Source of the DNA: an uncultured Acidimicrobiia bacterium
Lineage (GTDB): Bacteria; Actinomycetota; Acidimicrobiia; Acidimicrobiales; CAIXPF01
Direction of reading: 5' to 3'
NCBI GenBank assembly: GCA_903921205.1
Contig: CAIXPF010000190.1
Location: forward strand, 1-39,433
Length of the DNA stretch: 39,433 bases
Notes under the pieces: model-generated
Database searches by the model: none
What the model saw: only the letters and a program-made list of their open reading frames with translations
Told to the model about the DNA's origin: nothing
Shown here: positions 7,940 through 30,761 of the stretch, piece after piece
How positions within the stretch are numbered: the stretch's first letter is position 1
Layout: each line of letters opens with the position of its first letter
Made by a program: the position numbers and the translations under genes

Positions 7940-7972
7940 TCGGCCGCGTTCCGTACCGTCAGGTACCCTCTT

Positions 7973-9324: not shown

Positions 9325-9341
9325 ACGCCGCCTGGCCATAC

Positions 9342-9357
9342 CATGCCGAATAGTACG
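9342..9357. promoter_or_regulatory. Operator-like 16-mer (weak family member)
   Basis: CATGCC-GAAT-AGTACG resembles the CATACC-N4-GGTATG sites at about 15.8, 20.2 and 22.4 kb. It is preceded by an exact half-site, CATACC, at 9337-9342. Confidence 0.35.
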
Positions 9358-9425
9358 GCAAGGATGGCTCGGCGAGGGACGGCCCGAGGCCGGGCGGGCG
9401 AGGCCATGACACTCCCCGCGCGGAC

Positions 9426-15751: not shown

Positions 15752-15815
15752 GCACCCTGCCGGTCGCCGCAGCGTTCGAGCCGGGCCCGAACCTGCACGG
15801 CGAACGGTTCCACAC

Positions 15816-15852
15816 AATACTGAGTGGTACGGTGGACCTACCGAGTGGTACG
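15816..15852. promoter_or_regulatory. Two operator-like palindromes 21 bp apart
   Basis: AATACT-GAGT-GGTACG (15816-15831) and CCTACC-GAGT-GGTACG (15837-15852) are direct repeats sharing TAC[C/T]GAGTGGTACGG, spaced exactly 21 bp, or two helical turns. The second covers the expected -35 region of the leaderless promoter at 15866. A dimeric repressor binding side by side is the natural reading. Confidence 0.55.
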
Positions 15853-15865
15853 GGGCGGGGGCATC

Positions 15866-15871
15866 TACGGT
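15866..15871 (+). promoter_or_regulatory. Leaderless -10 box of the HSL-type hydrolase gene
   Basis: TACGGT lies 6 nt before the ATG at 15878, with no Shine-Dalgarno sequence. It supports this start over the in-frame ATG at 15824, which falls within the operator-like sequence. Confidence 0.6.
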
Positions 15872-15877
15872 GTGGTC

Positions 15878-16825
15878 ATGAACGCGCAGCCGTACTACGA
15901 CCCGGAGATCCGCGCCGCCCTCGAGCAGGGCCCCCGCCTCGGCTCGGTGAACGCCACGAACCTGGCCAAGATCCGCGCCGACCGACTGCAGCTGAACGCC
16001 CAGGTGCCCCTGTCCGATGCGGTGACCCGCACCGACATCACCGTGCCCGGCCCCGACGGCGCCCCCGACGTCCGCCTGCGGGTCCATCGTCGCGCCGGCC
16101 TCGAGGGTGATCTGCCGTGCCTGTTCTGGATCCACGGCGGCGGTTACGTCCTCGGTGCCCCCGAGCAGGACGACCTGCGCTTCGACCGCTGGTGCCAACG
16201 CTTCGACGTGGTCGGTGTCGCGGTGCAGTACCGCCTGGCCCCGGAACACCCCTATCCGGCCCCGCTCGAGGACTGCTACGCCGGGCTGAAGTGGGTCAAG
16301 GAGCACGGCTCCGAGATCGGCGTGGACCCCGGCCGGGTCGGCATCGGCGGCCCCAGCGGCGGTGGCGGCCTGGCGGCCGGTCTCGGGCTGCTCGTGCGCG
16401 ACCGGGCCGAGTTCCCGATCGACTACCAGCTGCTGATCTACCCGATGATCGACGACACCCGCACCAGCGTCACCGCCAACTGGGACGTGCCGGTGTGGGA
16501 CCCCGCCTCCAACCACTTCGGTTGGTCGTCCTACCTCGGCGAGCTGTTCGGACGCGACGACGTTCCCTACACCGCGGCCCCGGCCCGGGCCGCCGACCTG
16601 TCGGGCCTGCCCCCGACCTACATCATGGTCGGTACGCTCGACGGCTTCTGCGACGAGGACATCGCCTACGCCCAGCGCCTCAACCAGTGCGGCGTGCCGG
16701 TCGAACTGCACGTCTACCCCGGTGCGCCCCACGGGTTCGAGGGCTTCGCCCCCGGTGCCGCCGCTGCCCGTCAAGCCCGCCGCGACCTCAACGACTGGCT
16801 GGCCGCCCGCATCGGGCAGGCCTGA
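15878..16825 (+). CDS. HSL-family (fold-3) esterase
   Basis: This 315-residue protein has the hormone-sensitive-lipase-family oxyanion motif HGGGY (86-90). The elbow GIGGPSGGGG has nucleophile Ser160, the likely acid is Asp255 in VGTLDGFCDED, and catalytic His285 is in GAPHGFEGF. YRLAPEHPYPAPLEDCYAG (inner part) is diagnostic for this esterase group. Substrates are usually short-chain or bulky esters. There is no signal peptide, so it acts in the cytoplasm. It is followed after 29 nt by the CocE-like gene, likely in the same operon, under a leaderless promoter with two operator-like sites. Confidence 0.9.
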   Translation: MNAQPYYDPEIRAALEQGPRLGSVNATNLAKIRADRLQLNAQVPLSDAVTRTDITVPGPDGAPDVRLRVHRRAGLEGDLPCLFWIHGGGYVLGAPEQDDLRFDRWCQRFDVVGVAVQYRLAPEHPYPAPLEDCYAGLKWVKEHGSEIGVDPGRVGIGGPSGGGGLAAGLGLLVRDRAEFPIDYQLLIYPMIDDTRTSVTANWDVPVWDPASNHFGWSSYLGELFGRDDVPYTAAPARAADLSGLPPTYIMVGTLDGFCDEDIAYAQRLNQCGVPVELHVYPGAPHGFEGFAPGAAAARQARRDLNDWLAARIGQA

Positions 16826-16854
16826 GCCGCGCCATCCGAGCCAGGAGGAAGACC

Positions 16855-18651
16855 ATGTCCCTGATCGTTCCCGCCCACCGGCAGTACCGGGTCGTCACCG
16901 AGAAGGACGTCCCGATGACTACCCGGGACGGCGTGACCCTCTACGCCGACATCGTGCGCCCCGACGTGCCGGGCCGCTTCCCGGTGCTGTTGTCGCGCAC
17001 CCCCTACGGCAAGGGCGGCTCCACCGACCCCAACGGCCCGAACACGTTCTTCGCCCGCTACGGCTACGTGTCGGTGACCCAGGACTGCCGGGGCCGCTTC
17101 GCCTCCGAGGGCGACTACGACACCATCTTCCAGGAAGCCGCCGACGGCTACGACGCGGTGGAGTGGGCGGCCCGGCTGCCCTGGTCGGACGGCCGGGTGG
17201 GAACCACCGGCCAGTCCTACCTCGGCCTCACCCAGTACCTGATCGCCTGCAACGACCCGATGCCGCCGTCGCTGCGGGTGATGGCCCCGGTGTCGGCCTC
17301 CTCCGACTACCACCAGAGCTGGATCTATCACACCGGCGGGGCGTCGTTGTGGGGCTGGATGGTGCCCTACGCGATCTTCAAGGGCCGTGACACGCTGCGC
17401 CGGGCGGGCCGTGAGGACCTCGTCGAGCAGGTGATGTCCTACGTCGACGGCGAGTTCGCCCAGATCCGCCAGACCGCGAAGGGTCTGAACTTCACCACGC
17501 CGCTGACCGCCGAATGGTTCGCGCACCTGCCCATCAAGGACTGGGGCGATCTGCTGGCGGAGACCGCGCCGTACTTCGCCGAGCACATCGCCCACGCCGA
17601 GGACGGTCCGTACTGGCACCGGGCCAACGTCAACCGCCATGCCCGCAGCGTCGAGGTGCCGATGCTGCACGTGACCTCGTGGTACGACATCTTCGCCGAG
17701 GGTGGCCCCAACGCCTACCGCTCGATCAAGGACCACAGCGAGCACGCCGTGGCCCGCAACGGCCAGCGTCTCATCATCGGGCCATGGGGCCACCTGCTGC
17801 CCTACAGCGTGCCGAGCAGCCGCGGTGCCGGCGACATCGACTTCGGCGACGAGGCACTGATCGACCTCAATCGGATCCTGCTGCGCTGGTTCGACCACTG
17901 GCTCAAGGACGCCGACAACGGGATCATGGACGAGCCGCCGGTCAGCGTGTTCACCCTCGGCGAGAACCGGTGGCAGTCCCTGGCAGACTGGCCGCCGCCG
18001 AACATGCGGGCGGTGCGCTGGTACCTGCACAGCGACGGCCGGGCTGCCACCGCCGACGGCGACGGCACACTGTCGATGCTGCCTCCGGGCGACGAGTCGC
18101 ACGACGCCTTCACCTACGACCCGGCCGACCCGGTGCCGTCGATGGGCGGCAACAATCTCATCATCGACATGGGCGTGCAGGATCAGCGCCCGGTCGAGGA
18201 GCGGCCCGATGTGCTGGTGTTCACCTCCGAGCCGATGACCCGGCCGATGGAGATCACCGGGCCGGTCAGCGTGGAGCTGTGGGCGTCGTCGAGCGCCGTC
18301 GACACCGACTTCACCGCCAAGCTGGTCGATGTGCGGCCCGACGGGTACGCCATGAACCTGCTCGACGGCATCATCCGGGCCCGCTACCGTGACTCGGCCG
18401 AGACAGCGGAGCTGATGGAGCCCGGCCGCCCCTACCGCTTCACCATCGACCTGTGGAACACGTCCAACGTGTTCCTGCCCGGCCACCGCATCCGCCTCGA
18501 GATCAGCTCGTCGAACTTCCCCCGGTTCGACCGCAACCTCAACACCGGGGCGGCGTTCGGCGAGGGAACCTCGGGGGTCGTGGCCCGCCAGCAGATCTAC
18601 CACGACCGTGATCGCCCCTCGGCGGTGGTGCTGCCCGTCATCCCCCGCTGA
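16855..18651 (+). CDS. CocE/NonD-family hydrolase (X-Pro dipeptidyl-peptidase-like)
   Basis: This 598-residue protein has the three-domain CocE layout: an alpha/beta-hydrolase domain with VPMTTRDGVTLYADI and VTQDCRGRFASEG, an inserted helical cap, and a C-terminal jelly-roll (about 400-598) with ITGPVSVELWASSSAVDTDF and FLPGHRIRLEISSSNFPRF. The triad is Ser121 (TGQSYLG), Asp278 (SWYDIFAEG) and His313 (GPWGHLL). Relatives include cocaine esterase, glutaryl-7-ACA acylase and X-Pro peptidases; the substrate is open. It has no signal peptide. AGGAGGAA lies 5 nt before the ATG. The gene ends against the DUF2889 gene with a strong shared hairpin. Confidence 0.9.
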   Translation: MSLIVPAHRQYRVVTEKDVPMTTRDGVTLYADIVRPDVPGRFPVLLSRTPYGKGGSTDPNGPNTFFARYGYVSVTQDCRGRFASEGDYDTIFQEAADGYDAVEWAARLPWSDGRVGTTGQSYLGLTQYLIACNDPMPPSLRVMAPVSASSDYHQSWIYHTGGASLWGWMVPYAIFKGRDTLRRAGREDLVEQVMSYVDGEFAQIRQTAKGLNFTTPLTAEWFAHLPIKDWGDLLAETAPYFAEHIAHAEDGPYWHRANVNRHARSVEVPMLHVTSWYDIFAEGGPNAYRSIKDHSEHAVARNGQRLIIGPWGHLLPYSVPSSRGAGDIDFGDEALIDLNRILLRWFDHWLKDADNGIMDEPPVSVFTLGENRWQSLADWPPPNMRAVRWYLHSDGRAATADGDGTLSMLPPGDESHDAFTYDPADPVPSMGGNNLIIDMGVQDQRPVEERPDVLVFTSEPMTRPMEITGPVSVELWASSSAVDTDFTAKLVDVRPDGYAMNLLDGIIRARYRDSAETAELMEPGRPYRFTIDLWNTSNVFLPGHRIRLEISSSNFPRFDRNLNTGAAFGEGTSGVVARQQIYHDRDRPSAVVLPVIPR

Positions 18652-18664
18652 GCCGCAGTGCGGA

Positions 18665-18694
18665 CCCGGTCGGGGGTGTCAGCCTCCGACCGGG
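18665..18694. terminator. Hairpin at the CocE/DUF2889 convergence
   Basis: A 12-bp stem with one G-T pair (18665-18676 with 18683-18694) and a 6-nt loop begins 13 nt after the CocE stop. It overlaps the stop of the minus-strand DUF2889 gene. Its position suits a bidirectional terminator, although no T-tract follows. Confidence 0.6.
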
Positions 18695-19305
18695 CGCCCC
18701 GACGGGGTGAACCCGAGCTTGACGAAGCGTTCGCGCATCCAGCCGGGCCGGGCGTCGCCGTCCCCGGTGAGCACCGCCTCGAGGTGGTCGCCGCCCTCGC
18801 GCCAGACGTGACAGGTGTTGGTGTTCATCCGCACCCGGCGCTCGCGTTCGGCCTCGTCTCCGGACGGACCGGCGGCGAGCACCTCGAGCGGCTCGTCGAG
18901 GGTGACCAGGGCCCAGCTGGCCTGGACCGCCACCGGGGCCATGGCCTGGACCAGGGCGGTCAGGTGCGAGCAGCCCCGAGGACCGCCGTAGAGCCGGCGT
19001 ACCTCGTTGAGGAACCCCCGCGCCACCGACAACCCGATCATCGCCCGGTAGTCGGGCAGGATCGACGTGCACAGGTCGTAGGGGTGGGTGTGCATCACCG
19101 CCGTGACATCGACGATCTCGAAGCTGGGGACCTCGACCAGCAGCTCGAGGGTCATGTCGTGCACGACCAGCGGCTCGCCGTCGGCCGGGCCGAGCCCGAT
19201 CGGCTTGACGTCGGTGAGCCGTCCGACCACCCGCAGGCGGCCGTCCTCCTCGGCGAAGGCCTCGGTCTGGTAGGTCCGGTTGTGGATGTTCAGCCGTCTC
19301 GACAC
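18679..19305 (-). CDS. DUF2889 family protein
   Basis: This 208-residue protein starts SRRLNIHNRTYQTEAF and carries the DUF2889-like core: VVGRLTDVKP, MTLELLVEVPSFEIVDV, MHTHPYDLCTSILPDYRAMIGL, then RGCSHLTALVQAMAPVAVQ. No biochemical function is established for this family, which often sits next to catabolic or esterase genes. The start is a GTG at 19305 with a TACCGT box 8 nt upstream, implying a leaderless transcript. The longer frame to 19458 is Pro/Arg-rich and unlike the family. It is convergent with the CocE gene and divergent from the next hydrolase gene. Confidence 0.82.
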   Translation of the reverse strand: MSRRLNIHNRTYQTEAFAEEDGRLRVVGRLTDVKPIGLGPADGEPLVVHDMTLELLVEVPSFEIVDVTAVMHTHPYDLCTSILPDYRAMIGLSVARGFLNEVRRLYGGPRGCSHLTALVQAMAPVAVQASWALVTLDEPLEVLAAGPSGDEAERERRVRMNTNTCHVWREGGDHLEAVLTGDGDARPGWMRERFVKLGFTPSGRPVGG

Positions 19306-19313
19306 GGCCTGAC

Positions 19314-19319
19314 ACGGTA
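19314..19319 (-). promoter_or_regulatory. Leaderless -10 box of the DUF2889 gene
   Basis: TACCGT on the minus strand lies 8 nt before the GTG start at 19305, and no ribosome site is present. Confidence 0.5.
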
Positions 19320-19450
19320 GCGGCGCGCCGGCTGCGGTCCCGCAACGGTACCGACCGGGTGTCGCAGCGGGGTGTTGCGGCCGGGGCGGCGTAGCCTGCC
19401 GGTCGCCGGCGAATCGAACCGTCGCAGGCGTGCCGACGAGGGAGACGGTG

Positions 19451-20137
19451 ATGACCACGTACGTGCTGGTGCACGGTGCCTACCAGGGAGGTTGGATCTG
19501 GCAGCCGGTCGCGGCGCGGCTGCGCGCCGCCGGGCACACCGTGTACGCCCCGACACTCGACGGTTGTGCGGAACGTCGAGGCAGTCTCCGGGCAGGGATC
19601 ACCAACGACACCCACGCCGCCGAGATCGCCGATCTGCTGTTCTACGAGGACCTGCGCGAGGTGACCCTGGTCGGGACCAGCTCCGGTGGGATGGTCATCA
19701 GCCGGGCTGCGGAGCTGGCGCCGCAGCGGGTGGGGCGGCTGGCGTTCGTCGACGCGGTGGCCCTCGACGACGGTGAGCGGCTCGACGCCGTCGTGTCGCG
19801 TCCGGCGGTGACCGGCAACGAGCTGGCTGCCGGTCCGACCCGGCACGACGCGGAGACCCGGCTGTTCGCCGAGCTCGGCGAGCCGCTGCGCAGCTGGGTC
19901 CTGGAGCGCTACTGCCCGCACCCGGTGGCCGCCATGGCCGAGCCGATGCACCTCGAACGGTTCTGGTCGTTGCCGTGGGACGCTCTCGTGGTGCGTTGCA
20001 CCCGGGCGGTCAACCCGCCCGAGGCCCACCAGCGCCGCACCGCCGGGCGCCTCGGGGCCGTCTGGGCCGAGCTCGACACCGGCCACTATCCGATGCTCTC
20101 CACCCCCGACGAGCTGGTCGCATTGCTGCTGGCGTGA
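19451..20137 (+). CDS. Small alpha/beta hydrolase (salicylate-esterase/EstC-like)
   Basis: This 228-residue protein starts MTTYVLVHGAYQGGW, the HG-Ala-x-x-Gly-x-W opening of plant-type methylesterase, hydroxynitrile-lyase-like and pyrethroid-esterase-like hydrolases. The nucleophile elbow is LVGTSSGGM (Ser77), and catalytic His212 is in LDTGHYPMLS. A short cap domain lies at about 115-170. It is probably a cytoplasmic carboxylesterase; the substrate is unknown. GAGGGAG lies 6 nt before ATG 19451, which rejects the in-frame upstream ATG at 19430. The next gene on the strand is the MFS transporter, 251 nt away, with an operator-like palindrome between them. Confidence 0.85.
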   Translation: MTTYVLVHGAYQGGWIWQPVAARLRAAGHTVYAPTLDGCAERRGSLRAGITNDTHAAEIADLLFYEDLREVTLVGTSSGGMVISRAAELAPQRVGRLAFVDAVALDDGERLDAVVSRPAVTGNELAAGPTRHDAETRLFAELGEPLRSWVLERYCPHPVAAMAEPMHLERFWSLPWDALVVRCTRAVNPPEAHQRRTAGRLGAVWAELDTGHYPMLSTPDELVALLLA

Positions 20138-20151
20138 ACCGCCCGCGGTGC

Positions 20152-20167
20152 CATGCCATTCGGTATG
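20152..20167. promoter_or_regulatory. Operator-like palindrome before the MFS gene
   Basis: CATGCC-ATTC-GGTATG is flanked by C and G, which makes an 18-bp near-palindrome. Read on the other strand it is CATACC-GAAT-GGCATG, close to the sites at 15816-15852. It lies 14 nt after the preceding stop and about 220 nt before the MFS start. Confidence 0.5.
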
Positions 20168-20388
20168 GTCGGTATCGCCTGGTGCTGTGCTGAGCGGCTC
20201 GGAGTGTTCAGCTGCCGCTCCAGCGGGGCGGCCGTTTCCCGCTCTCGTCGACCGGACCCGGCTCGTACGCTCGGGCGGCGCTGTCGGCACAGTCTCGCGC
20301 CGCTGTGGATGAAGCTCGCGCCGGCAGGCCGGACGGTAACCTCCGTGGCGATGCGCCAGGTCACCTGCACGGTTGTGAACTGCTCGGT

Positions 20389-21549
20389 ATGACCGGCTCG
20401 GCGTCACGGGTGTGGCCAGTCCTGACGGTGGCCGCAGCATCCGCCGCGGTATCGCAGGCGTTCGGCCGGTTCACGTTCCCGCTGCTGTTCACCGAGGTGC
20501 GCGACGACCTCGGCCTGTCCAACACACTCGCCGGTATGCTCGGGTCGGCCAACCTGCTGGCCTACCTCACCGGGACGTTGCTGGTGAGCCTGCTGGTCGG
20601 GCGGGTCGGGCTGTCGCGCACGACCCGGCTCGGCGTGGCCGGGGTGACCGCCGGGCTGGCGCTGCTGTCGTGGTCGCCGGGCTATCCGGTGGTGCTTGCG
20701 GCGCTGCTGCTCACCGGGCTGTTCGCCGCCGGGGTGTGGGTGACGGTCCCGGCCATCGCAGCGTCACAGGTCGGCCCGGAGCGCCGCGGCAGCGCCATCG
20801 GTGTCGTCGGCGCCGGCATCGGGCTGGGGATCATGGTCGCGTCGGCCCTGCACGCCGGGCCCGGCGAGGGCCAATGGCGGCTGGTGTACCGAGCCGAGAC
20901 GGCGTTGGCCGTGGCGGTGGCGCTCGCCGGGCTGCGCTGGCTGCGGGTGGCGTCGGGCGGCGTCCGTCCGGGCGGCGGGCTCGCGGCCATGCGCGACGTG
21001 CCCCGGTGGCAACGCCTGTTGCTCACCTACGGCCTGTACGGCTTCGCCATGTCGCTGATCGTGACGTTCCTGGTGGCCGTGCTGAAGCAGGACGGCGGCT
21101 ACTCGACCTCGGCGGCGTCGTTCGCCTTCTCGTGTTTCGGGGCGGGGACCATCGCCGGTGGGCCGCTGTTCGGCCCTCTGGCCGATCGCTGGGGCCGGAC
21201 CGAGGCCATGCGGCTCGGGTTCGCGCTGCTGGCGCTGTCCGCCGTGGTGATCGGCTGGACAGCCCGTCCGTGGGCGCTGATCGCCGCGACCTGTTTCGGG
21301 CTGGCGTTCACCGGCGTGCCGACCACGGTCGCCGCCCGGATGAGCGATGCCCTGGCAGCGGAACGTTTCGGGGCTGCGTACGCCGTCGCCACGCTGGCCT
21401 TCGGCGCCGGCCTCATGGCCGGACCGCAGGTCGGTGGTCTGATCGGCGACGTCACCGGGTCGTTCCGGCCGGTGTTCTGGTTGGCGACCGCGGTGGCGTC
21501 GGTCGCCGGCGTCCTGGTGCCTGGCGACGGGCCCGGCGCGACAGGCTGA
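20389..21549 (+). CDS. MFS transporter (YbfB/YjiJ-like)
   Basis: This 386-residue protein is strongly hydrophobic with about 12 membrane helices. The first helix region contains SQAFGRFTFPLLF, like the G-x-GRF motif of YbfB/YjiJ-type transporters. The loop after helix 2 has LVGRVGLSRTTRLGVAG, and the equivalent in the second half is PLADRWGRTEAMRLG, the MFS motif A. A role in uptake or efflux of a small organic acid linked to neighbouring esterases is inferred only. The ATG at 20389 is chosen because the frame from 20305 is polar and precedes the first helix. No good ribosome site is seen. TAACCT, about 45 nt upstream, may be the -10. Confidence 0.85.
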   Translation: MTGSASRVWPVLTVAAASAAVSQAFGRFTFPLLFTEVRDDLGLSNTLAGMLGSANLLAYLTGTLLVSLLVGRVGLSRTTRLGVAGVTAGLALLSWSPGYPVVLAALLLTGLFAAGVWVTVPAIAASQVGPERRGSAIGVVGAGIGLGIMVASALHAGPGEGQWRLVYRAETALAVAVALAGLRWLRVASGGVRPGGGLAAMRDVPRWQRLLLTYGLYGFAMSLIVTFLVAVLKQDGGYSTSAASFAFSCFGAGTIAGGPLFGPLADRWGRTEAMRLGFALLALSAVVIGWTARPWALIAATCFGLAFTGVPTTVAARMSDALAAERFGAAYAVATLAFGAGLMAGPQVGGLIGDVTGSFRPVFWLATAVASVAGVLVPGDGPGATG

Positions 21550-21565
21550 CGGGTGGCCGAGCGGG

Positions 21566-22420
21566 TCAGGGACGGCCGAGGGCCCAGGCGATGCCGTTGC
21601 GCAGCAGCTGGTCGAACCCGGCGGCGTCCCAGGCGCCGGTGAAGGTCAGCGGGGTGGTGCCGTCGGCGGCGACCGAGGCATCGACGAAGGGCTGGCTGTT
21701 GCTCGAGGGGTTGTGGCAGTGGCCGAGCGCCACGTAGGCCACCCCACCCGGTTCGGCGGTGGGATCGCCGTCGGACCGTGGCACCAGGCGGAGCGTGGCC
21801 AGGGCCCGGGAACGCCCGTCGGGCAGCACGGATCGGTCCTCGGGAACGGCGAACCCGAACCCGTCGGGCGTGACGTCGTCGGGCAGCTCGGTCTGCAGCA
21901 GCACCGACGTGTCGGCCCCGAGGACCTCGAGCAGGTACAGCTCGTCGTCGACCTCGAACCCGTCGGGCACGCCGCGCAGCAGCCGTTCGGCGTGACGGTC
22001 CGATCCGGCGGCGCCGGGCGTCAGGTCGACCCGGAACCGGCGGATCGGCGGGTGGTTGAGGAAGAACACGCCGAGGGTGTCGTGATGACCGGTGCGCACC
22101 ATGCGCCGGCGCCGGCTGGACGGCGACAGGGGAGCGGCCCGGCCGCCGGCGCTGCCGTGCAGGGCGAACCAACGGCCTCCCGCCGCCAGCCAGCGGTCCA
22201 ACGCCTCGAGCTGCGGGCCGTCCGGGTAGGGCCCGGCGGTGTAGCTGACCAGGACCGTGCTGACCGCCAGCCAGCGTTCGAGGTCGGTGAAGTCGTTGGC
22301 CACCGTTGCGGCGACGCCGGCGTCGGCGAGATGGCCGAGCAGCCGCAGCCGCACCGTGTCCATGTCGTGACCGGCCCGCCGGCCTGCTGGATACCCACCG
22401 ACGACCAGGTGCACCGTCAT
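21566..22420 (-). CDS. ThuA-like (class I glutamine amidotransferase fold) protein
   Basis: This 284-residue protein opens with HLVVGGYPAGRRAGHDMD and contains WLAAGGRWFALHGSAGG, VDDELYLLEVLGADTSVLLQ, and VAYVALGHCHNPSSNS. These match the ThuA fold seen in trehalose-utilisation proteins and carbohydrate-linked Gln-amidotransferase-like domains. There is no classical catalytic Cys elbow, as usual for ThuA. The function is unknown. The ATG at 22420 has a TAGGGT box 6 nt upstream, so the transcript is probably leaderless. It is convergent with the MFS gene (16-nt gap) and divergent from an F420 oxidoreductase gene, with an operator-like palindrome immediately upstream. Confidence 0.72.
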   Translation of the reverse strand: MTVHLVVGGYPAGRRAGHDMDTVRLRLLGHLADAGVAATVANDFTDLERWLAVSTVLVSYTAGPYPDGPQLEALDRWLAAGGRWFALHGSAGGRAAPLSPSSRRRRMVRTGHHDTLGVFFLNHPPIRRFRVDLTPGAAGSDRHAERLLRGVPDGFEVDDELYLLEVLGADTSVLLQTELPDDVTPDGFGFAVPEDRSVLPDGRSRALATLRLVPRSDGDPTAEPGGVAYVALGHCHNPSSNSQPFVDASVAADGTTPLTFTGAWDAAGFDQLLRNGIAWALGRP

Positions 22421-22426
22421 GGGACG

Positions 22427-22432
22427 ACCCTA
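22427..22432 (-). promoter_or_regulatory. Leaderless -10 box of the ThuA-like gene
   Basis: TAGGGT on the minus strand lies 6 nt before the ATG at 22420. It is 3 nt from the palindrome at 22436-22451, so a protein bound there would block the promoter. Confidence 0.5.
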
Positions 22433-22435
22433 CCG

Positions 22436-22451
22436 CATACGGATCAGTATG
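22436..22451. promoter_or_regulatory. Operator-like palindrome in a divergent promoter
   Basis: CATACG-GATC-AGTATG has perfectly complementary outer five bases and a self-complementary GATC centre. On the minus strand it reads CATACTGATCCGTATG and resembles the 15816 site. A further half-site, GGTATG, lies at 22463-22468. It sits between the ThuA-like and LLM genes. Confidence 0.5.
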
Positions 22452-22545
22452 GAACGGCGACGGGTATGCCGGTTGCGTCGCGGTCGCCGACCTACGGTGT
22501 GCTCCGGCAGGCCGGGGGCCTGGTTCGAGAGGTCGGGGAGGACCG

Positions 22546-23571
22546 GTGCAGGACGAGAACGGCATGCCGACGGCGTCGGTCGGCCTGGCCTTGTGGGGGA
22601 CCGAACCGGTCCGTACGGTGGCCGACCACGCCCGGCTGGCCGAGGCGGTCGGCTTCGAGAGTGTCTGGTTGGTGGACACGCAACTGATCTGTCGTGAGCT
22701 CTACGTCACGCTGGCGGCGTGCGCCCTGGCGACCGAACGGCTGCGCCTGGCCTCGGGTGTCACCGTGCCGCTGACCCGTCACGAGAGCGTCACCGCCAGC
22801 GCGCTGGCCACCCTGCAGGAGCTGTCGGCAGGTCGTGCACTGGCCGGTATCTCCACCGGTCATTCGGCGCTGCGCAACATCGGCCGCAAGCCGGTCACGG
22901 TGGGGCAGCTCGCCGAGTACGTGGGCACCGTCCGGGCGCTGCTCGACGGCGGGACCGCATCCTTCGCCGCGGGGATCGAGGGCGCGTTGTCGTGGTTGCG
23001 CGGGCCGTCGGGGGTGCCGCTGCACATCGCCGCCACCGGCCCGAAGCTGACCAGAGCTGCGGCGTCGATGGGCGACGGGGTGGTCCTGCTGCGCGGCGCC
23101 GCCGACGATCTGGTCGAGCGGGGCCTCGAGCTGGTGGCGTCGGGAGCCGCAGACGCCGGCCGGCCGGCGGGCTCGGTCCAGACCACGGTCTGGGTGTACG
23201 TCGGCCTCGACGACGAACCCGAGGTGGCCTACGACCAGGTCCGGGCCCGGGTGGCGGCGGTGCTCCGCCTGGCCGATCCGGCCGACTTCGCCGGCGAGGA
23301 CCGCGAGGCGGTCGAGCGTCTCCGCCGGAACTACGACATGTTCGCCCACGCCCAGTCGATGCCCGAACATGCGGCGCTGGTGCCCGAGCGGCTGTTGGAT
23401 CGTTATGCCATCGCCGGCAACGCCACGGTGGTCCGCGAGCGGCTGTCTCGCCTGCTCGCGGACCCACGGATCGACCGGGTGGTGGTGAGCCCGCAGATCG
23501 GGGCGCCGGGACGGCCGATCACCGCACCGTTCATCGAGCGGTTCGGCGCCGAGGTGCTCTCCGGGCTCTGA
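22546..23571 (+). CDS. LLM-class (F420-type) oxidoreductase
   Basis: This 341-residue luciferase-like protein contains ASVGLALWGTEPVRTVADHA, VGFESVWLVDTQLICRELY, LRLASGVTVPLTRHESVTA, ALAGISTGHSALRNIGRKP and PLHIAATGPKLTRAAASMGDG. The layout suits F420-dependent members such as methylenetetrahydromethanopterin-reductase-like enzymes. The substrate is unknown. The start is taken as GTG 22546, with GGGGAGG 4-5 nt upstream. ATG 22564 is an alternative and would leave a family-typical start (MPTASVGLALWG). It is divergent from the ThuA-like gene and convergent with the SDR gene. Confidence 0.83.
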   Translation: MQDENGMPTASVGLALWGTEPVRTVADHARLAEAVGFESVWLVDTQLICRELYVTLAACALATERLRLASGVTVPLTRHESVTASALATLQELSAGRALAGISTGHSALRNIGRKPVTVGQLAEYVGTVRALLDGGTASFAAGIEGALSWLRGPSGVPLHIAATGPKLTRAAASMGDGVVLLRGAADDLVERGLELVASGAADAGRPAGSVQTTVWVYVGLDDEPEVAYDQVRARVAAVLRLADPADFAGEDREAVERLRRNYDMFAHAQSMPEHAALVPERLLDRYAIAGNATVVRERLSRLLADPRIDRVVVSPQIGAPGRPITAPFIERFGAEVLSGL

Positions 23572-29012: not shown

Positions 29013-30761
29013 GGGGGATGGAGCCTGATCCGGGACCTCCTCCGGGCGCGCTCCGGCTGGGTGGCGGTCGGGGTGGCCACCGGGCTGGTGTGGGCGCTGG
29101 CCCGGGTCAGCGTGCCGTACCTGGTGATGCAGGCCATCGACCGGGGCATCACCGGTCGGGACGTCGCAGCGCTGGCCCGTTGGACCGCCGCGGCGGCTGC
29201 GGCGGGCCTGGTGGCGTCGTTGTGTGCCGGGCTCCGGCGGTTCTTCGCCTTCCGGGAGGGCCGCATGGCCGAGGCCACCCTGCGCGCCCGGCTGTTCGGG
29301 CACCTGCTCGGCCTCGACTTCGGGTACTTCGACCGCTCGTCGGCCGGCGACCTGATGTCGCGGGCCAACAGCGACCTGCTGCAGATCCAGAACTTCCTGA
29401 ACATGATCCCGTTCACGCTGGGCAACGCGCTGCAGGTGGTGGCGGTGACGGTGCTGCTGTTCTGGCTCAACCCGCTGCTGGCGCTGTGCGCCCTCGGCTC
29501 GTTGCCACTGGTCAACGTGCTGGGCCGGCGGTTCTCGATGCGGTTGCACCCCTCGATGATGGGTATCCAGCAGGCCTCGGCGCGCGTCGCCGCGGTGGTC
29601 GAGGAGACCGTGGCCGGCAGCCGGGTCATCAAGGGCATCGGGGCCGAAGGGGTGCAGCAGGCCAAGCTCGAGCACGAGGCCGACGGCCTGTACGGCGAGG
29701 CCATGGGGGCGCTGCGCACCCGGTCGCGGTTCGTGCCGGCCCTTGACCTGCTGCCCAACGTGGGCTTGCTGCTGGTGGTCGCGGTCGGGGGTCACCAGGT
29801 GCTCGCCGGGAAGCTGACGCTCGGCGAGCTGATCGCCTTCAACGTGTACGTCAACCAGCTGATCTGGCCGCTGCGGGCGCTGGGCTTCGTGATCGCCATG
29901 GGTCAGCGGGCGGTGGCCGCCGCCGAGCGGGTGGCCGAGGTGCTCGACGCCCGGCCGGCGGTGGCGCCGCCGGTGGCACCGCAGCCGTTGCCGGACGCCC
30001 CGCACGGCGAGGTGCGCTTCGAGTCGGTCCGCTTCGGCTACCCCCGTTCGGCCCGCCGCGTCCGTCCCGAGCGGGCCGACGTGCTCGACGGGTTCGACCT
30101 GGTGCTGCGGCCCGGCGAGACCGTGGCCCTCGTCGGTGCCACCGGGTCGGGCAAGTCGACGGTGCCGCGGCTGCTGGCCCGGTTCTACGACGTGGACGAC
30201 GGCCGGGTGCTGCTCGACGGGGTCGACGTGCGGTCCCTGTCGCTCGACCAGCTCCGCCGGGCGGTGGGCATCGTCTTCGAGGACAGCTTCCTGTTCACCG
30301 ACTCCGTCGCCGCCAACATCGCCTTCGCCGATCCGACCGCCGGCGACGAGGCGGTGGGCGAGGCGGCCCGGTTGGCCGGTGCGGCCGGGTTCATCGCCGA
30401 CCTACCGAAGGGTATGCAGACCGAGGTCGGCGAACGCGGCTACTCGCTCTCCGGTGGCCAACGTCAACGGATCGCGATCGCCCGGGCGTTGGTGGCGCGG
30501 CCCCGGGTCCTGGTGCTCGACGACGCGACCTCGGCCATCGACCCGGCAAAGGAACGCGAGATCCTCGACGGGCTCGCGGGCGAGACGGGCCGGGCGACCA
30601 CCCTGGTGATCAGCCACCGGCCGGCCACCATCGCCCTGGCCGACCGGGTGGTGTTCCTCGACGAGGGCCGGGTCGCCGCCGAGGGCCGACACGAGGACCT
30701 GCTGGCGTCGAACGCCCGCTACGCCGAGGTGCTGGCGGCGGCGATCGCGGAGGCCGGCTGA
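29007..30761 (+). CDS. ABC exporter half-transporter, degenerate-site subunit
   Basis: This protein is about 584 residues: a six-helix exporter membrane domain (about 1-320) fused to an ATPase domain. Walker A GATGSGKST is at 377-385, canonical signature LSGGQ at 481-485, and the H-loop His is near 537. Walker B is LVLDDATSAID, with Asp506 in place of the catalytic Glu, the mark of the degenerate partner in heterodimeric exporters such as TM287/288. The start is uncertain. GTG 29007 lies in the leader hairpin; CTG 29025 has a better ribosome site but is a rare start codon. It overlaps the next gene by TGATG, so the two are translationally coupled. The substrate is probably lipid-like or a glycoconjugate, by context. 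Confidence 0.87.
   Translation: MRGGWSLIRDLLRARSGWVAVGVATGLVWALARVSVPYLVMQAIDRGITGRDVAALARWTAAAAAAGLVASLCAGLRRFFAFREGRMAEATLRARLFGHLLGLDFGYFDRSSAGDLMSRANSDLLQIQNFLNMIPFTLGNALQVVAVTVLLFWLNPLLALCALGSLPLVNVLGRRFSMRLHPSMMGIQQASARVAAVVEETVAGSRVIKGIGAEGVQQAKLEHEADGLYGEAMGALRTRSRFVPALDLLPNVGLLLVVAVGGHQVLAGKLTLGELIAFNVYVNQLIWPLRALGFVIAMGQRAVAAAERVAEVLDARPAVAPPVAPQPLPDAPHGEVRFESVRFGYPRSARRVRPERADVLDGFDLVLRPGETVALVGATGSGKSTVPRLLARFYDVDDGRVLLDGVDVRSLSLDQLRRAVGIVFEDSFLFTDSVAANIAFADPTAGDEAVGEAARLAGAAGFIADLPKGMQTEVGERGYSLSGGQRQRIAIARALVARPRVLVLDDATSAIDPAKEREILDGLAGETGRATTLVISHRPATIALADRVVFLDEGRVAAEGRHEDLLASNARYAEVLAAAIAEAG

Follow-up and report, generated by a model that had tools for sequence, protein, structure and literature searches.

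The window, the whole 39,433-nucleotide stretch of DNA analyzed here, carries an esterase gene (alpha/beta hydrolase, Abhydrolase_3; 15878..16825, plus strand; Pfam PF07859) followed by a gene for a CocE/NonD-like hydrolase of the X-Pro dipeptidyl-peptidase family (16855..18651, plus strand; PF02129 and PF08530), an MFS transporter gene, and a ThuA-like gene divergent from a gene encoding a luciferase-like (LLM) monooxygenase. The preliminary description had named these genes correctly, as judged by Pfam, with the ThuA-like protein scoring under the Pfam cut-off. It had also listed four palindromes, all of which are present: AATACTGAGTGGTACG at 15816, CCTACCGAGTGGTACG at 15837, CATGCCATTCGGTATG at 20152, and CATACGGATCAGTATG at 22436. 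As proposed there, these four are members of one family, since they all match a single matrix derived from the genome, with scores of 16.8 to 21.7 bits. The idealized form given for them, CATACCN4GGTATG, has no exact occurrence in the window.

Site 1 (15815..15832; CAATACTGAGTGGTACGG; 18.5 bits; this and all other palindromes are given without strand) is the upstream member of a 21-bp tandem pair preceding the esterase gene. It has no direct alignment in the sister species (G001), whose sequence shows 10-bp repeats of half-sites at that place. Site 2 (15836..15853; ACCTACCGAGTGGTACGG; 16.8 bits) occupies the -35 position in the promoter of the esterase gene, and both its position and its spacing are kept in the sister species (TACCGGGCGGTA) and in the related genome G003 (CATACCGAGACGTATG). 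A -10-like TACGGT (15866..15871, plus strand), located 6 nucleotides before the ATG at 15878 and kept in five orthologous upstream regions, is, judging from these features, probably the leaderless promoter of the esterase-CocE operon. The ThuA-like gene shows the same geometry: a -10-like TAGGGT (22427..22432, minus strand), kept in G001 and G003, sits 6 nucleotides before the ATG (22420, minus strand) with the palindrome just upstream, a spacing that suggests leaderless transcripts for both genes. This palindrome, site 4 (22435..22452; GCATACGGATCAGTATGG; 21.7 bits), adjoins the -10-like element on its upstream side and corresponds to GCATACGGGTTGGTATGG (19.7 bits) in G001; in the alignment with G003, it was not recognizable. 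On the other strand, a -10-like TACGGT (22493..22498, plus strand), also kept in G001 and G003, is the putative promoter element of the LLM monooxygenase gene. The sites at 15839 and 22438 (within sites 2 and 4) overlap the esterase-CocE and ThuA promoters, in keeping with the preliminary description, and persist in the sister species. The ThuA-like gene of G001 itself looks interrupted, with a match starting from residue 77-78 and one internal stop (L053/L056; G001 C23, approximately 39410-40033).

Site 3 (20151..20168; CCATGCCATTCGGTATGG; 19.8 bits), on the 3' side of an abh6 gene, had been placed before the MFS transporter gene but is not a site of that gene's promoter, since a minus-strand enoyl-CoA hydratase gene intervenes in G001 and G003. 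Alignment with those two genomes revealed remnants of this gene in the window (20206..20340, minus strand); it has been deleted here, and site 3 ancestrally lay in a convergent gap, as it still does in the sister species. Further family members were found at 7951..7968 (CCGTACCGTCAGGTACCC; 16.2 bits), in a convergent gap; at 9341..9358 (CCATGCCGAATAGTACGG; 17.4 bits); at 22601..22618 (CCGAACCGGTCCGTACGG; 16.2 bits), within the LLM gene; and at 30400..30417 (ACCTACCGAAGGGTATGC; 16.4 bits), within a gene. In total, the window (39 kb) holds eight sites of at least 16 bits, against a chance expectation of approximately 0.2, with the window itself being included in the training data of the matrix. 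No dif site was found in the window with a loose pattern.

The matrix built from the genome has as its consensus an 18-bp palindrome, CC-RTACCGATCGGTAY-GG, and a scan of the kind suggested in the preliminary description showed that this palindrome is iterated genome-wide, at about 600 sites. Because the main sample (1.09 Mb) had been picked around motif hits, densities were taken from an independent 198-kb sample, consisting of stretches that were picked arbitrarily or because they contain TetR genes and that had played no part in building the matrix. Here, 32 sites of at least 12.5 bits were found, or 162 per Mb, compared to approximately 27 per Mb in shuffled sequence, which translates into some 600 real sites in 4.36 Mb. 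The exact pattern CRTACN6GTAYG occurs 186 times in the genome to which the window belongs (G000), versus 6 times for the reversed control, and TACYGANNSGTA was counted 124 times over the two strands, versus 5 for its reversed control. TACC-N4-GGTA is by far the commonest 4-N4-4 palindrome of equal GC content in intergenic DNA and also the top one listed in coding DNA, in a sample whose choice around hits inflates the absolute counts. This iteration is confined to the genus: CRTACN6GTAYG was counted 157, 480, and 56 times in the three other genomes of the genus and 0 to 13 times, similar to the respective controls, in 55 genomes from elsewhere in the order, while the stricter CRTACCN4GGTAYG reaches counts of 72 and 53 in two genomes of the genus and is found at most twice in each of 245 other genomes of the class. 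The genomes of the relatives appear, from their record titles, to be metagenome assembled; one contig that corresponds to G003 (CAMDQT010000006.1; L175) bears the title Ferrithrix thermotolerans DSM 19514 but comes from a metagenome-assembled genome (isolate TH-08apr19-218), and its title may be a naming error.

Two possible origins of the iteration were rejected. The palindromes are not part of a mobile or otherwise multicopy longer repeat, as the flanks are almost free of information past the 18 bp and most coding sites align without gaps to the sister genome, and they are not an artifact of composition or codon usage, as the intragenic copies are far more numerous than in synonymous-codon shuffles. 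A second iterated intergenic element, in which 11-bp units (CGTCGATTCGG/CGAATCGACGG type) are repeated in tandem, was observed in G000 (e.g., L005:18713-18790 and L017:634-660, with one partial copy near position 19408 of the window); it contains those 10-base words that are the most strongly overrepresented in the intergenic DNA of that genome.

The genome contains 21 matches to the TetR_N domain, none of which is located on the contig of the window. A TetR gene carrying its own copies of the site, as had been anticipated, does exist: on contig C14 (12190-12729), a gene encoding a protein of approximately 180 amino acids with an N-terminal helix-turn-helix domain of the TetR_N type (PF00440, scoring 33 bits where the cut-off is 24) is preceded by seven sites of at least 10 bits, six of them of at least 11 bits, in the approximately 200 bp of its promoter region, and it is the only one of the 21 with upstream sites of at least 14 bits. 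The other 20 TetR genes were rejected as the source of the binder, 19 having no upstream site of at least 10 bits and one having a single 13.6-bit site. Orthologues of the C14 TetR occur in the three other genomes of the genus (94, 84, and 74% identity), and the two remaining genomes of the family contain no relative above the cut-off. A scan of contigs from 84,980 species, which detects close relatives only and may omit the organism's own genome, returned only three loci, all from members of the genus. The recognition segment (ITKGSFYHHF) is invariant in four orthologues, and the basic C-terminal tail is conserved; likewise, a CCATACG-N4-GTAYGG palindrome over the -10 element of the gene is invariant in all four species of the genus. 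Remote homologues (28 to 30% identity) in two genomes from two other families, G019 and G050, are preceded by CCATACGGTAGCGTATGG and CCATACGGGTGCGTATAG and come from genomes without the iterated motif, so that the ancestral state looks like that of an autoregulated local repressor, with the operators outside the genus resting on these two related genomes. Altogether, these observations lead us to infer that the C14 TetR is probably the protein that binds the palindrome family.

The start of the C14 gene is probably a CTG: the conserved reading frame (L101-L104) begins at this codon after a GGAG, and there is no conserved in-frame ATG or GTG at that place. Its conserved neighbor is an enoyl-CoA hydratase gene. 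An AlphaFold model of the C14 TetR based on four sequences had a mean pLDDT of 59, too low a value for a fold search. Operator half-sites were also seen repeated in tandem over short distances, at periods of 10, 14, or 15 bp (L063:19609-19667, L085:12206-12283, L056:8514-8562, and the upstream region of L102), including, in G001, arrays preceding the esterase gene and the TetR gene itself.

The preliminary description had taken the palindromes to be intergenic operators. While this holds for the four sites listed there, it does not hold for the family: with genes called by a simple codon-model finder written for this analysis, 247 of the 315 sites in the 1.09-Mb sample (approximately 80%) fall inside genes. 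Within genes, no 5' bias was observed, with successive tenths containing 20, 25, 25, 21, 32, 27, 32, 27, 33, and 30 sites. After tandem arrays were collapsed, the density was 0.67 per kb in convergent gaps, 0.45 in tandem gaps, 0.26 in divergent gaps, and 0.23 in coding DNA. Equal frequencies in coding and intergenic DNA had been named as evidence against a regulon; the frequencies are not equal, intergenic density being approximately 1.8 times that of coding DNA, yet the excess extends beyond promoter-containing gaps, and the expected promoter enrichment is absent from divergent gaps. The enrichment in convergent gaps is only a trend once arrays are collapsed (P = 0.066). Along contig C1 of G001, density is uneven, at 0 to 10 sites per 20 kb, and in G003, 9 of approximately 49 exact sites lie on the 92-kb contig C13, which is orthologous to the window, at a spacing of approximately 9 kb (Poisson P = 2e-5, before correction for the number of contigs). 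The dnaA contig of G003, one of a set of draft contigs unordered relative to origin and terminus, contains one exact site.

The intragenic palindromes are under constraint at the DNA level. In 307 kb aligned with the sister species G001 (90% identity), 61 of the 67 coding sites are retained as sites; with permuted matrices that were likewise palindromic, this was so for 208 of 319 (Fisher P = 8.5e-6). Where a key motif base falls on a third codon position, it is the same in both species in 147 of 158 cases, versus 94.7 expected for those bases (P = 5e-21), whereas the degenerate core of the same sites behaves neutrally (78 of 110, versus 83.1 expected). Third-position T or A at key motif positions is conserved between the sister species in 91% of cases, and this conservation increases with the quality of the match, from 0.35 to 0.45 for isolated half-sites through 0.51, 0.70, 0.78, 0.93, and 0.90 in rising score bins. 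Context-dependent conservation of TAC/GTA words was rejected as an explanation, as the lack of constraint on isolated half-sites rules out a simple context effect.

With somewhat more confidence than doubt, we propose that the palindromes are the sites of one orphan TetR, which have been multiplied and selected and work with it as a chromosome-scale factor. The operator of an ancestral autoregulated repressor would have been multiplied in this genus to several hundred chromosomal copies, with selection keeping these copies, most of them within genes. The C14 TetR would bind the palindromes, including CRTACCGANCGGTAYG/CCATACGCAGCGGTACGG, and its dimers, by occupying dispersed sites, might report or shape the position or structure of the nucleoid, in a manner akin to the sites of SlmA, RefZ, Noc, or MatP. 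Where a site meets a promoter, as at its own gene, the esterase-CocE operon, and the ThuA gene, the same protein would also act as a repressor. Hundreds of constrained, mostly intragenic sites that show no preference for promoters are better accommodated by a chromosome-scale role than by a regulon. The absence of an encoded division or segregation partner near the C14 TetR counts against such a role. The more specific notion that this genus of Acidimicrobiia turned the operator of an orphan TetR into a chromosome-wide address system, read by a nucleoid-organizing or division-coupling protein, is put forward tentatively, as we give it slightly less than an even chance.

Alternatively, the TetR might be a global transcription factor or silencer that tunes transcription at several hundred sites, with no dedicated role in the nucleoid, be it as an intragenic roadblock, as a suppressor of spurious or antisense transcription, or as a silencer of particular regions. 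The constraint on intragenic sites, the presence of some sites on promoters, and the uneven density along the G001 contig are all compatible with this, but sites within genes show no 5' bias and divergent promoters no excess, and we consider this reading rather unlikely. A different possibility is that the palindrome is iterated by a process of DNA repair or methylation, with no binder of its own and with only a secondary likeness to a TetR operator. Such a process has been proposed for a precedent, HIP1 of cyanobacteria, which, like the family described here, is a lineage-specific palindrome of high copy number (PMC4390886); the mostly coding location fits as well, and biased maintenance of the HIP type could in principle mimic the synonymous constraint, including that at third positions. 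However, HIP1 is an 8-mer of fixed sequence that is associated with methyltransferases (PMC4390886), and a short, fixed methylase site would differ from the motif found here, a degenerate palindrome of two half-sites that tolerates A or G at its flank and nearly any core. Moreover, a single TetR gene with a cluster of sites tracks the motif across genomes, and its remote homologues retain the operator without iteration, making this explanation quite improbable. Finally, the scattered catabolic TetR regulon favored in the preliminary description, which would now require the intragenic copies to be functionless, retains its single family, its likely TetR binder, and its sites at the TetR gene's own, esterase-CocE, and ThuA promoters, but it is very improbable, given that synonymous positions are constrained, divergent promoter regions are not enriched, the MFS example was a misreading, and sites are not concentrated in target promoters as in a conventional regulon.

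Intragenic transcription factor sites have often been regarded as chance by-products, a view supported by simulations (PMC6397444). Here, by contrast, hundreds of such sites show synonymous constraint that grows with match quality and are tied to one TetR that is specific to one genus among the genomes examined. Our literature search found no TetR protein with many coding sites and no TetR-based nucleoid-organizing or division-coupling factor for this actinobacterial lineage. If the chromosome-scale reading is correct, the system makes it a testable question how a local repressor turns into a chromosome-scale protein. The Actinobacteria are described as lacking the Z-ring regulators that are canonical in E. 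coli (PMC7118173), and whether they evolved sequence-specific nucleoid factors of their own is likewise a question that can be tested.

As for known systems, we compared the palindromes and their candidate reader to several chromosomal proteins. MatP sites are short, dispersed palindromes that a dedicated chromosomal protein reads. The same arrangement is found for Noc, which, unlike the TetR-family candidate proposed here, belongs to the ParB family and whose 14-bp sites number about 70 (PMC4726725). RefZ of Bacillus is a TetR-family protein with nearly palindromic motifs whose positions are conserved across the genus (PMC6657595), but these number five (two per chromosome arm and one near oriC), compared to several hundred here, and serve a developmental role. 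SlmA, which mediates nucleoid occlusion in E. coli and relatives, is likewise a TetR-family protein whose palindromic sites are scattered along the chromosome; it differs in having a gammaproteobacterial rather than acidimicrobial origin, a different consensus, and 24 to 52 sites (PMC4726725) rather than about 600. The latter number is roughly tenfold that of Noc or SlmA sites, which counts against the chromosome-scale reading. Proteins of the SlmA type, when bound to DNA, directly inhibit the assembly of FtsZ; the likeness drawn here to the C14 TetR is one of protein family and of dispersed palindromes, which the C14 TetR probably binds. SlmA also acts at the promoter of the chb operon in Vibrio cholerae (PMC5519180) and offers a precedent for the dual role that we propose for the C14 TetR, as a chromosome-scale factor and as a repressor at individual promoters.
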